Source of the DNA: Candidatus Bathyarchaeia archaeon
Lineage (GTDB): Archaea; Thermoproteota; Bathyarchaeia; Bathyarchaeales; Bathycorpusculaceae
DNA: 64,000 nt
NCBI GenBank assembly: GCA_038873195.1
Contig: JAVZEV010000001.1
Span: forward strand, 648,490 to 712,489
Direction of reading: 5' to 3'
Shown: positions 19,165 through 35,237 of the stretch, in pieces
Numbering within the stretch: the first letter of the stretch is position 1
Layout of the letters: each line of letters opens with the position of its first letter
The notes under the pieces: generated by a model
The model's input: the letters and a program-made list of their open reading frames with translations, nothing else
The model's database searches: none
Told to the model about the DNA's origin: nothing
Program-made: the position numbers and the translations under genes

Positions 19165-19902
19165 TTGGCGCTTACAAAAGCAATAATCTTCGACTTCATC
19201 GGCACCTTAACAGACGTTAAAAACTATAGCCTAGAAAATTCAAAAGTCAAATTGTATAAGGCAATTGCCGAAGCAGGATTCAACGTCAGTCTTGAAAATT
19301 TTCTGGAAGCCTACACTCAAGCGCACGAGAAATACCGCGTCATACGCTATCAAAAACTGGTCGAAGTGACAAATGCGGTGTGGATTTCAGAAGCCCTAAA
19401 CACTCTAGGATTCGCAACATCTCCGGAAGACACGCGCATAAAAGCGGCTGTAAACGTTTTCTTTGAAGATTACGTGAACTCCTTCGAACTTAGAAAATGC
19501 GCAAAAAAGACGCTCAGCAAAGTCTGCGGAGACTACAAACTTGGTTTAATCTCAAACTTCACGTATGCACCAGTAATCTATGCAGGTTTGAGAAAACTGG
19601 GCATAAACAGGTTTTTTAACGTTGTTTTGGTTTCGGAAGCTGTTGGTTGGCGCAAGCCTCACGCGAAGATTTTTGAAGAAGCAATCAGAAGGCTTGGAGT
19701 GAAAGCGGAAGAAACTGTTTATGTGGGAGACAGCCCGTTAGAGGATATGAAAGGCGCGAAGACTGTTGGAATGAGAACAGTTTTTGTTCCTTCACAGTTT
19801 TATTCACTTGAAAACCTTATGGAAAGCCAACAGAAACCAGACTTGATTGTAAAGGATATTTGTATGCTTTGCAAAGAAATTAGAAATTTTTTAAAATCTT
19901 GA
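19165..19902 (+). CDS. HAD-superfamily hydrolase-like protein with altered motif I
   Basis: 245 residues. Motif I reads FDFIGTLTD: the nucleophile aspartate is kept, but the usual second aspartate (DxD) is isoleucine. Motif II is SNFTYAP, the motif III lysine is in WRKPHAK, and motif IV is GDSPLEDMKGA. Loss of the acid/base aspartate occurs in non-phosphatase HADs such as dehalogenases and some phosphonatase-like proteins, so ordinary phosphatase activity is doubtful. Start TTG at 19165 behind AAGAGGA. An ATG at 19161 is out of frame and hits a stop after about 20 codons. Confidence 0.82.
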   Translation: MALTKAIIFDFIGTLTDVKNYSLENSKVKLYKAIAEAGFNVSLENFLEAYTQAHEKYRVIRYQKLVEVTNAVWISEALNTLGFATSPEDTRIKAAVNVFFEDYVNSFELRKCAKKTLSKVCGDYKLGLISNFTYAPVIYAGLRKLGINRFFNVVLVSEAVGWRKPHAKIFEEAIRRLGVKAEETVYVGDSPLEDMKGAKTVGMRTVFVPSQFYSLENLMESQQKPDLIVKDICMLCKEIRNFLKS

Positions 19903-20031: not shown

Positions 20032-20208
20032 ATGGGAGGTGGAGAGGCTACGACAAAAAAGTTGTTAATTGAAGTTTTGCTTGTCGAAGAAAGTGCAGAG
20101 AAAACAGACAGAGAACTCGAAGCGGAGATTCGTGATGAGCTCTCAGAAAACACGCATGTAATTCCATGGGCGGCGAAAATAGAAAAAATGCAAATCATCA
20201 ACGAATAA
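20032..20208 (+). CDS. Small IPWA-motif protein, paralogue 1
   Basis: 58 residues from the ATG at 20032; in-frame ATG 20002 and TTG 19972 upstream are alternatives. The pattern is K-K-hydrophobic strand (LLIEVLLVEES), an acidic helix (ELEAEIRDELSE), then VIPWAAKIEKMQI. The same plan recurs at 25683-25844 and 34717-34872, with IPWA followed by K/R-rich hydrophobic strand in all three. The predicted order is strand-helix-strand. No known family recognised. The recurrence at three separate loci argues it is a real gene family. Confidence 0.7.
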   Translation: MGGGEATTKKLLIEVLLVEESAEKTDRELEAEIRDELSENTHVIPWAAKIEKMQIINE

Positions 20209-20395: not shown

Positions 20396-20473
20396 TGGTG
20401 CGGTTGCCGGGATTTGAACCCGGGTCGTCAGCGTGGCAGGCTGATGTCCTAGACCAGGCTAGACTACAACCGC
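20396..20473 (-). tRNA. tRNA-Gly (GCC)
   Basis: Acceptor stem GCGGTTG pairs with CAACCGC. The anticodon stem TCAGC/GCTGA encloses the loop CTGCCAC, giving anticodon GCC. The T arm reads CCGGGTTCAAATCCCGG. A discriminator A and an encoded CCA (20396-20398) close the 3' end. No intron. Confidence 0.93.
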
Positions 20474-25524: not shown

Positions 25525-25608
25525 ATTGCACCTATTGTTGAAGTTGAAGGTTTTATTGAAAAGGTTTATGGAACAAAGTTTCAGTCGTTTTTGGATTCAG
25601 AATCATAA
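25525..25608 (+). pseudogene. Possible relict of a protein-coding gene (28 codons)
   Basis: An open stretch bounded by stops reads like real protein (APIVEVEGFIEKVYGTKF...) and ends in TAA at 25606-25608, but it has no standard start codon. A purine-rich run (GAGGAGAAGGGAGAAAGGAG) lies about 20-40 nt upstream. It may be the 3' remnant of a decayed gene or chance. Parent family not recognised. Confidence 0.25.
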
Positions 25609-25682
25609 TTCATGATACATCAAGAAGGGAAATACTGCTTAAAACCCAAAAAAAGTGATGTAGACTGCAGAGGGAATGAAAC

Positions 25683-25844
25683 ATGAAAAAGAAAACAGCG
25701 TTAATCACGGTTGAATTGGTCGATGAAAGTCTTATGGAAAACAATGAAACAATCACACGAGAACTGTTTGAGTGGTTTAATGAAGATGCGGTTTCTATTC
25801 CTTGGGCTAAAAAAGTGAAAAAAATAACGGTGAAGGCTTCTTAA
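25683..25844 (+). CDS. Small IPWA-motif protein, paralogue 2
   Basis: 53 residues, ATG at 25683 behind AGAGGGA. The order is K-K-K, a beta-like stretch TALITVELVDES, an acidic helix ETITRELFEWFNED, then SIPWAKKVKKITV. The same core is found at 20032-20208 and 34717-34872. It has no cysteines and no transmembrane segment. It lies between tRNA-Phe and tRNA-Val and has no partner gene in common with the other copies, so co-function cannot be inferred from context. Confidence 0.75.
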   Translation: MKKKTALITVELVDESLMENNETITRELFEWFNEDAVSIPWAKKVKKITVKAS

Positions 25845-26102: not shown

Positions 26103-26176
26103 GGGCCCGTAGTCTAGTTGGTTAGGACGTCGCCCTCACGCGGCGAAGGTCGCCGGTTCAAATCCGGCCGGGCCCA
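26103..26176 (+). tRNA. tRNA-Val (CAC)
   Basis: Acceptor stem GGGCCCG pairs with CGGGCCC. The anticodon stem TCGCC/GGCGA encloses CTCACGC, giving anticodon CAC. The T arm is GCCGGTTCAAATCCGGC. Discriminator A; CCA not encoded. No intron. Confidence 0.93.
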
Positions 26177-33238: not shown

Positions 33239-34597
33239 CTAAAGCAAGGGAGCGCTCATTGTATAGTTAGCAAAGATTACCATATCTTGATTAAGAGTCA
33301 CAGTCCTATTCAGACTAGTGCTTCCATCTTCCCACCACAAAAACCTGTAGGCTGTTCCGCCAATTATAACAGTTGAATTAACAAGAATGAAATATGTTCC
33401 TTCAGCCAACGTGCTTTCCCAAGGAGCACTGCTCTGGAAATATTCAGACCCTTCATATTGTATCCAAAAAGTAACTCCTGGCACGTTAGAGTCTATTTTG
33501 ATAGAGTGAACCCGCGGTGGAGGAAGAGTTATCCCACAAAGAATAAAAACTATAAAGAGTATGGGAATCACGCATTTCCGCTTTTTCGAGAGAGAAGACA
33601 CATCATCTAAAGGTCCAGGATGCCGAAAAAGAGACAAAAACAGAACAAAAAAAGCCATGGGATAATATCCATAGATTACAAGAAAAACAATTGCTACAAC
33701 ATTCAATACGCCTCTCAATTTTCCGCCCAAAATAGACGTGGCAACGTGACCCCCATCTAGCATGCCTGCAGGCAACAAATTCAGCATCGTAACAATCATA
33801 CCTATGAAACCCGCAAAAGCAACAGGATGTATAAGAATTATGTTACCGCGTCCATACACACCAAGATTACTCAACGCTGTTCCTATAAGGTCGAAGAGAA
33901 TTGGAAACGACCCAAACGGTCCCTCAGGAAGTCTGTACACTACTGGCGAAAGCGCAAGACCAACAAAAGTGACAATAACAGTAATAACAAATCCTATAAG
34001 CGGCCCACTTACGCCTATGTCAAACAATGCGTCTCTGTTACGTGGTAAAGATTTCTGCATTATAACTGCGCCGAAGGTGCCGATGCCAAAAACTTGCCCA
34101 ACAGGCGGCGGGCCTGGAATGAAATATGGTGGCGACGATTCCACTTTCCTCTTGTTTGCGGTTAATTTGTGTCCCATCTCATGTGCTCCGAGAACCGCCA
34201 TTATAGCTACCGTGAATGTTGCACCGCTTATGAACGGGTTAATCATTGCAGGAGAAATCAAGTATCCAGTCGCAAACGTCGTTCCAATAGTAGCAAAAAA
34301 CAATAACCAATTGATTAGAATGTTGCTTGGTTTTGTAGGCGGTTTCTGAACCACTTTTAAAACAATTTTACCATCACGTTTTCGTAAAATCGCTATTAAA
34401 TTTATCTTTTCTAGATTATCTAACAATCTTAAAAAAGCGTTTTTTGTTTCTTGAGGCTGTTTTAAAAAGTATGTTGGAACGTTATGTTCTATCAATGCCT
34501 CTTCTACTTGAAACTCTGCAGTTACAAGCGCGGTTATTTGCTCAAAATATGCTTGGTCGAATGGTGCTTCCGCGGTTTCGCTTGGTATTTCAGTCAT
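33239..34597 (-). CDS. Site-2 protease-like M50 membrane metalloprotease
   Basis: 452 residues. An N-terminal cytoplasmic domain of about 85 residues precedes the membrane core. The zinc motif HEMGH follows AVLGA, and the third ligand is in LDGGHVATS. Six or so transmembrane segments. After the last helix, a C-terminal extracellular ~100-residue beta domain (IKIDSNVPGVTFWI...WWEDGSTSLNRTVTLNQD) resembles the modules on archaeal surface proteins. S2P-family enzymes cut membrane-embedded segments in regulated proteolysis; the client is unknown. Confidence 0.88.
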   Translation of the reverse strand: MTEIPSETAEAPFDQAYFEQITALVTAEFQVEEALIEHNVPTYFLKQPQETKNAFLRLLDNLEKINLIAILRKRDGKIVLKVVQKPPTKPSNILINWLLFFATIGTTFATGYLISPAMINPFISGATFTVAIMAVLGAHEMGHKLTANKRKVESSPPYFIPGPPPVGQVFGIGTFGAVIMQKSLPRNRDALFDIGVSGPLIGFVITVIVTFVGLALSPVVYRLPEGPFGSFPILFDLIGTALSNLGVYGRGNIILIHPVAFAGFIGMIVTMLNLLPAGMLDGGHVATSILGGKLRGVLNVVAIVFLVIYGYYPMAFFVLFLSLFRHPGPLDDVSSLSKKRKCVIPILFIVFILCGITLPPPRVHSIKIDSNVPGVTFWIQYEGSEYFQSSAPWESTLAEGTYFILVNSTVIIGGTAYRFLWWEDGSTSLNRTVTLNQDMVIFANYTMSAPLL

Positions 34598-34716: not shown

Positions 34717-34872
34717 TTATTCGACAATTTTAAGCTTTTCAATTCTTTGAGCCCAAGGAATCAACAAAAAGCCTTCAGAAAATTCTCTTAAAATTTCACT
34801 TCTAATTGTATTAGATGGTTTGTCGATAGCTTCTGGAACTAGCAAAATTTCAATAATCACCTTTTTGACCAT
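34717..34872 (-). CDS. Small IPWA-motif protein, paralogue 3
   Basis: 51 residues, ATG at 34872 behind AAGGTGAAAG. The order is V-K-K, strand IIEILLVPEA, helix TIRSEILREFSE, then LIPWAQRIEKLKIVE and TAA at 34717. It matches paralogue 1 closely (IEVLLVEES versus IEILLVPEA; IPWAAKIEKMQI versus IPWAQRIEKLKI). It lies upstream of, and in the same direction as, the M50 protease gene, 119 nt away. Confidence 0.75.
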   Translation of the reverse strand: MVKKVIIEILLVPEAIDKPSNTIRSEILREFSEGFLLIPWAQRIEKLKIVE

Positions 34873-35012
34873 GTCTTTCACCTTTTTAAGACTAAAAGAA
34901 TAAAATTTGATTATTATGATTTATTATTTATTCTGAATCTGAATTAGAATGGGCTTTTTATGAATGTTCTTTAAGAAATTAATAAAGTTCGGTTTTTGAA
35001 CTGGAACATGAA

Positions 35013-35237
35013 CTATTTTCTGAAAAACGTCAACCTTTTGGAAGTCTTAGCTTCTTTACTAACCATGTAGATTTCATAAAGTTCGTATATCGCTCCGCAA
35101 CCTTTACAATGAACGTAAGGTTTATCGCGTTTCATTCCCAGCCAGAAACCTTCTTTGGAGTTGCATTTGGGACATACTTTGAGATTACCAAATGCGTCCT
35201 CAATTTCTTGAAATCTCAAGTGCTCTCCAATCTCCAT
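35013..35237 (-). CDS. Small zinc-ribbon protein
   Basis: 74 residues with CPKCNSKEGFW and CKGCGAIYELYEIY, one zinc ribbon of the type fused to or accompanying transcription and RNA proteins. The C-terminus is basic. ATG at 35237. No partner gene suggests its role. Confidence 0.72.
   Translation of the reverse strand: MEIGEHLRFQEIEDAFGNLKVCPKCNSKEGFWLGMKRDKPYVHCKGCGAIYELYEIYMVSKEAKTSKRLTFFRK

Follow-up and report, generated by a model that had tools for sequence, protein, structure and literature searches.

The window considered here, the whole stretch of 64,000 nucleotides that was analysed, derives from the 1.63 Mb genome of a Candidatus Bathyarchaeia archaeon (G000) and carries three short genes whose products share an Ile-Pro-Trp (IPW) motif. 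All three open reading frames named in the original prediction are present and encode proteins of 58, 53 and 51 residues. Together with their immediate surroundings, they are arranged as follows:

19165-19902 (+), HAD-like hydrolase, ending 129 bp before copy 1 and a conserved neighbour of the copy-1 clade
20032-20208 (+), IPW mini-protein copy 1, 58 codons with the start as given
20396-20473 (-), tRNA-Gly(GCC), located downstream of copy 1 and likewise present at L009 and, further off, at L007
25313-25387 (-), tRNA-Phe(GAA), flanking copy 2 on the left and retained across several genera
25590-25608 (+), upstream motif with one mismatch, TTTGGATTCAGAATCATAA, at about -87 relative to the start codon of copy 2
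25638-25644 (+), TATA-like box CTTAAAA of copy 2, read from upstream sequences and kept in many clade members
25683-25844 (+), IPW mini-protein copy 2, 53 aa, in a 22-row clade kept beside tRNA-Phe/tRNA-Val
26103-26176 (+), tRNA-Val(CAC), flanking copy 2 on the right and retained across several genera
33239-34597 (-), peptidase family M50 gene (PF02163, E 4.7e-18), downstream of copy 3
34717-34872 (-), IPW mini-protein copy 3, 51 aa, followed after 119 bp by the M50 protease gene, also on (-)
34932-34943 (-), upstream motif of copy 3, TTCAGATTCAGA, exact match, about -65 from the start codon

The common plan attributed to the three copies reflects homology beyond chance, with within-genome E-values ranging from 1.9e-9 to 3e-3. 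Copy 3 as the query recovered copies 1 and 2 with E-values of 1.9e-9 and 5.5e-5, respectively; using copy 1, the corresponding values were 5.4e-9 for copy 3, 1.3e-6 for a fourth copy and 3e-3 for copy 2. This fourth copy is located at C1:343175-343330 of the same genome, 325 kb from the window copies.

Paralog clades and their conserved neighbourhoods

Judged from their placement in the family tree, the window copies are ancient paralogs and not recent duplicates, since each groups, with good support, with orthologs from other genera in a separate clade. The clade of copy 2 has 22 rows (support 99/99), that of copy 3 six (99/98) and that of copy 1 three (100/98); the fourth copy is paired with the ortholog from the same genus. 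The tree as a whole is built from a short alignment and has many weak forks and weak deep support. The description of the copies as having different neighbours is accurate within the window, but across genera each copy retains neighbours of its own. For example, copy 2 sits between the divergent tRNA-Phe and tRNA-Val genes, and one or both of these tRNAs flank its orthologs in several genera. Downstream of copy 2 are a zinc-ribbon-like ORF and a rhomboid gene, the latter recurring approximately 0.8-2 kb downstream of copy-2 members at 8 loci. Copy 3 is flanked by a metallo-beta-lactamase-fold gene and the M50 protease gene; an M50 gene adjoins copy-3 members in four loci, in three of which it lies downstream on the same strand. 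A 74-residue zinc-ribbon-like ORF with a weak Lar match (35013-35237 (-)) precedes copy 3 on its strand, and is found again before the copy-3 ortholog in L097.

The annotated start of copy 1 is uncertain, because its first codons (ATG GGA GGT GGA GAG; 20032-20055 (+), GGAGGTGG) resemble a Shine-Dalgarno sequence, TTG stands in place of the window ATG in the same-genus ortholog, and the ATG start of L068 aligns to an ACG in copy 1. The true start may therefore be this non-canonical ACG, about 18 bp downstream.

Extent, conservation and predicted fold of the family

Bathyarchaeia are an abundant group that has been little characterised, and gene callers readily overlook short genes. A single-query search returned matches in 21 of 40 relatives. 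With a profile of 23 rows (A1), members were detected in 67 of the 256 genomes of the class, in 36 of 120 when only good-quality genomes are counted, and at up to 6 copies per genome. A sample of 398 genomes from the phylum added only two matches (G337 and G463), both of which look spurious because they are sited inside long ORFs. All named records that were found belong to Candidatus Bathyarchaeota or Bathyarchaeia, with nothing credible outside the class; the family is thus all but restricted to Bathyarchaeia and the tailed viruses of this class. No member scored above noise or cut-off in Pfam, NCBIfam or PHROGs, no match was returned by a PDB sequence search or from phage and plasmid records, and a limited literature search found no description of the family. 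The proposal of a multi-copy, undescribed family with further homologues in related genomes is supported by these searches, and we regard the family as real and previously unlisted.

Members are proteins of about 52 residues (median 53) with a median pI of 5.1. Across 90 members, the most conserved positions are L11 (100%), W40 (99%), E14 (94%), P39 (92%) and E26 (84%), and the IPW signature is completed by an Ile in 79%. When dN/dS was tested between close orthologs, it was mostly 0.02-0.35: the fourth copy gave 0.02, copy 2 and its same-genus ortholog 0.14, and several others 0.035 to 0.34. Less informative pairs gave 0.5 for copy 1, on 12 changes only, and 0.39 and 0.63 for two more distant comparisons. 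Most pairs are under purifying selection, and the genes are real. Shine-Dalgarno-like sequences precede 52 of 84 starts, as compared with 6 of 84 in a control stretch, the former figure being somewhat inflated because the choice of start partly used the same criterion.

AlphaFold2, given 19 sequences, predicts a beta-alpha-beta arrangement (pLDDT 83 for copy 3 and 87 for copy 2), with elements E4-11, H20-32, E41-50 and E4-12, H21-33, E42-52 in two modelled paralogs. Foldseek against the PDB and viral structures gave no match below E 0.3, and the best VIA-align hit was a baseplate domain with a Z of 3.7; folds as small as this seldom score. Because two strands and one helix leave the edges of the sheet open, the models suggest that oligomerisation or binding to a partner is likely.

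Two known folds invite comparison. In dodecins (PF07311), a Trp stands at the start of the second strand. IPW proteins share with them the small beta-alpha-beta start, a Trp near the second strand, an 'IELV' in the first strand that resembles the dodecin sequence, and a possible oligomeric state; they differ in being some 20 residues shorter than dodecins (about 65-70 residues) and in lacking the third strand. The RAM domain of AsnC/Lrp regulators (PF01037), including its stand-alone form, is similar as the beta-alpha-beta half of a ferredoxin-like fold and through its link to regulators, whereas the IPW proteins are half its length and show no profile similarity to it. Neither relationship was retained: hhalign probabilities were 0.5% for dodecin (over 10 columns) and 0.1% for AsnC/RAM, and PF07311 matched no family member. 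It is accordingly very unlikely that IPW proteins are small ligand-binding or ring-forming proteins of the dodecin or RAM/ferredoxin-half kind, as their topology and Trp position might suggest; the dodecin Pfam occurs separately, in 3 of 31 genomes.

An upstream motif and a candidate regulon

Many family genes are preceded, at a distance of 53-117 bp, by the motif TTCnGAwTCnGAA. In the copy-2 clade it lies about 40 bp upstream of the TATA-like CTTAAAA. The sequence TTCNGAWTCNGA occurs in only 8 places in the 1.63 Mb genome, the copy 3 site among them. In the 200 bp upstream of family genes, the core TCnGAnTCnGA was found 19 times (1.06 per kb), compared with a density of 0.05 per kb over the 814 kb of loci. 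A leave-one-out matrix placed 35 of 89 members above the 95% background level, where about 4.5 would be expected, most sites being at -57 to -97. These 35 members form 19 groups at 60% identity, and a p-value for the excess should not be read literally, because the motif was defined on the same genes and orthologs are not independent. In relatives, the sites are no more numerous in total than in a reversed control; the motif is therefore rare, and it is from its position that it takes its meaning.

Large ORFs contain 26 of the 78 sites examined. Sites that recur 47-150 bp before the same genes in different genomes belong to M50 proteases (9), a secreted-protein family (4), MEDS-like (3), TFB (2), PadR (2) and IPW genes (2), the target names other than M50 and PadR having been read from sequence. 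At the nine M50 genes (L179, L182, L185, L194, L212, L217, L228, L240 and L242), the motif is 70-94 bp upstream; the TFB-like genes are in L187 and L235 and the PadR genes in L192 and L246. Four further PadR genes that are convergent with IPW genes also carry the motif, and upstream of the PadR partners no common perfect palindrome was found. Taken together, the motif-bearing genes may constitute a small Bathyarchaeia regulon. The possibility that the IPW protein itself reads the motif was dropped, since the proteins are acidic and the motif precedes the M50 gene of G016, a genome that is 96% complete and in which no family member was detected. For the latter reason, IPW proteins are better seen as members of the putative regulon than as readers of its motif.

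Regulator neighbours, viral copies and possible roles

Approximately 895 neighbouring ORFs were clustered, and genes within 200 bp of a family member were taken as adjacent. PadR-like regulators account for 16 of the 93 adjacent genes versus 8 of the 802 further away, all comparison genes lying within about 5 kb (Fisher p 2e-11); their identity is confirmed by PF03551 matches (E 2e-9 and 5e-13). At ten chromosomal loci the PadR gene is convergent with the IPW gene, the 3' ends overlapping by as much as 23 bp or lying up to 11 bp apart, and the same arrangement is found in the virus L157. As these convergent pairs form only three groups at 60% mini-protein identity, the PadR signal is partly due to inheritance of a few ancestral pairs. 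Other regulators recur as well. An AsnC-type gene is convergent at 14-15 bp in L069, L070 (the fourth copy of the window's own genome) and L077, and a TrmB-like gene, named by the look of its sequence, is divergent in L109, L121, L128 and L137. The earlier suggestion of an adaptor or regulator would be consistent with these PadR, AsnC-type, TrmB-type and MazE/AbrB-like neighbours (the last described below) and with the shared upstream motif. PadR (PF03551) cassettes are a known point of comparison in archaeal viruses and proviruses, and the regulator partner here is a plain PadR family protein; the difference is the convergent mini-protein, for which no description was found in the literature searched. 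Neither PadR nor AbrB occurs in the searched parts of the text of a Bathyarchaeia virus paper (PMC10848311) and an archaeal provirus paper (PMC11705971).

Five contigs of the tailed-virus type in IMG/VR contain a family gene, and terminases are encoded in L156 and L157 and a portal protein in L158. Near the family gene is an ABC-ATPase/GNAT fusion gene in L154 (5188-6645, where both domains were checked), L155 (1540-2976), L156 (156-1688) and L157 (3264-4901), and in L156 and L157 this gene is close to the terminase gene. The chromosomal copies L066, L071, L073, L074, L076 and L125 are probably in proviruses, because they are flanked by the same ABC/GNAT gene, several with a terminase.

On account of these viral copies, the protein could be a virus accessory (moron or host-takeover) peptide that originated in bathyarchaeal tailed viruses, at module borders beside the terminase and ABC-ATPase/GNAT genes, its chromosomal copies being leftover or domesticated and PadR merely the regulator of an accessory cassette. 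The terminase- or portal-encoding contigs, the probable proviruses and the convergent IPW-PadR pair common to L157 and chromosomes speak for this explanation, which we consider possible but doubtful: the 22-member copy-2 clade occupies one chromosomal site in many genera and was not found in viral contigs, and the tree, with its short alignment and weak deep support, gives no direction of transfer. An unlikely alternative is an adaptor or inhibitor of membrane proteases, acting with the M50 (S2P-like) protease in the copy-3 clade and possibly with the downstream rhomboid in the case of copy 2. It would account for the adjoining M50 genes, for the upstream motif that both genes share across genomes and for the recurrent rhomboid gene, but not for most subfamilies and all viral copies, which have no such neighbours. 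Moreover, a tRNA and another gene separate copy 2 from the rhomboid, and many genomes have a motif-bearing M50 gene with no IPW gene between.

Small size and a MazE/AbrB-like ORF immediately upstream of the family gene in two viral contigs (L154 and L155), abutting or overlapping it, bring to mind the toxin of a toxin-antitoxin pair, with the MazE/AbrB-like or PadR protein as antitoxin or repressor. Such a role is highly improbable. The MazE/AbrB Pfam scores of 16.9 and 17.2 bits are below the curated cut-off of 24.7, there is no match to solved or profiled toxins, and across about 80 loci no recurrent antitoxin partner in an operon was found apart from this weak ORF. The toxin-like peptide of the original prediction thus finds no backing in the chromosomal copies, all window copies included, which have no recurrent toxin or antitoxin partner.

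Our best guess, a tentative one, is that IPW proteins are small oligomeric partners of winged-helix regulators, common to hosts and viruses. Through its exposed sheet edges, the protein would assemble as a homodimer or a larger ring or would attach to a partner, and the conserved E14, E26 and P39-W40 would form a docking surface. Having no DNA binding of its own, the protein would dock on winged-helix regulators, most often of the PadR type, and tune their activity; the low median pI would likewise argue against direct DNA binding. In viruses, the same docking could adjust host or viral transcription, and copies 2 and 3 would represent domesticated chromosomal forms within the regulon controlled through TTCnGAwTCnGAA. 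Oligomerisation, docking on regulators and a function in infection are the parts of this scheme that we infer. Against it, many members, copies 1-3 included, have no adjacent regulator gene, no fusion of IPW to a regulator domain was seen, and regulators are common in chromosomes, the enrichment having been measured relative to genes within about 5 kb. A broader formulation, which we consider rather unlikely, is that IPW proteins form a novel class of co-regulators, small and not binding DNA, that plug into unrelated winged-helix regulators (PadR, AsnC-type and TrmB-type), are traded between Bathyarchaeia and their viruses, and have been built into a host regulon that has a promoter element of its own. 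A conserved mini-protein family shared with viruses, enriched next to PadR genes and preceded by a common motif, offers a handle on transcription control and virus-host exchange in Bathyarchaeia; if the co-regulator reading is true, it would also define a novel type of small accessory for winged-helix regulators.

Individual lineages show further variation. G127 has one standard copy and five diverged copies (L131, L133, L136, L140 and L142) whose IPW loop has been reduced to CDW (e.g., QCDWLLKT), a lineage-specific expansion. Stop codons interrupt family members at G196:C1:44921, G028:C5:121247 and G197:C2:87440, consistent with pseudogenes.
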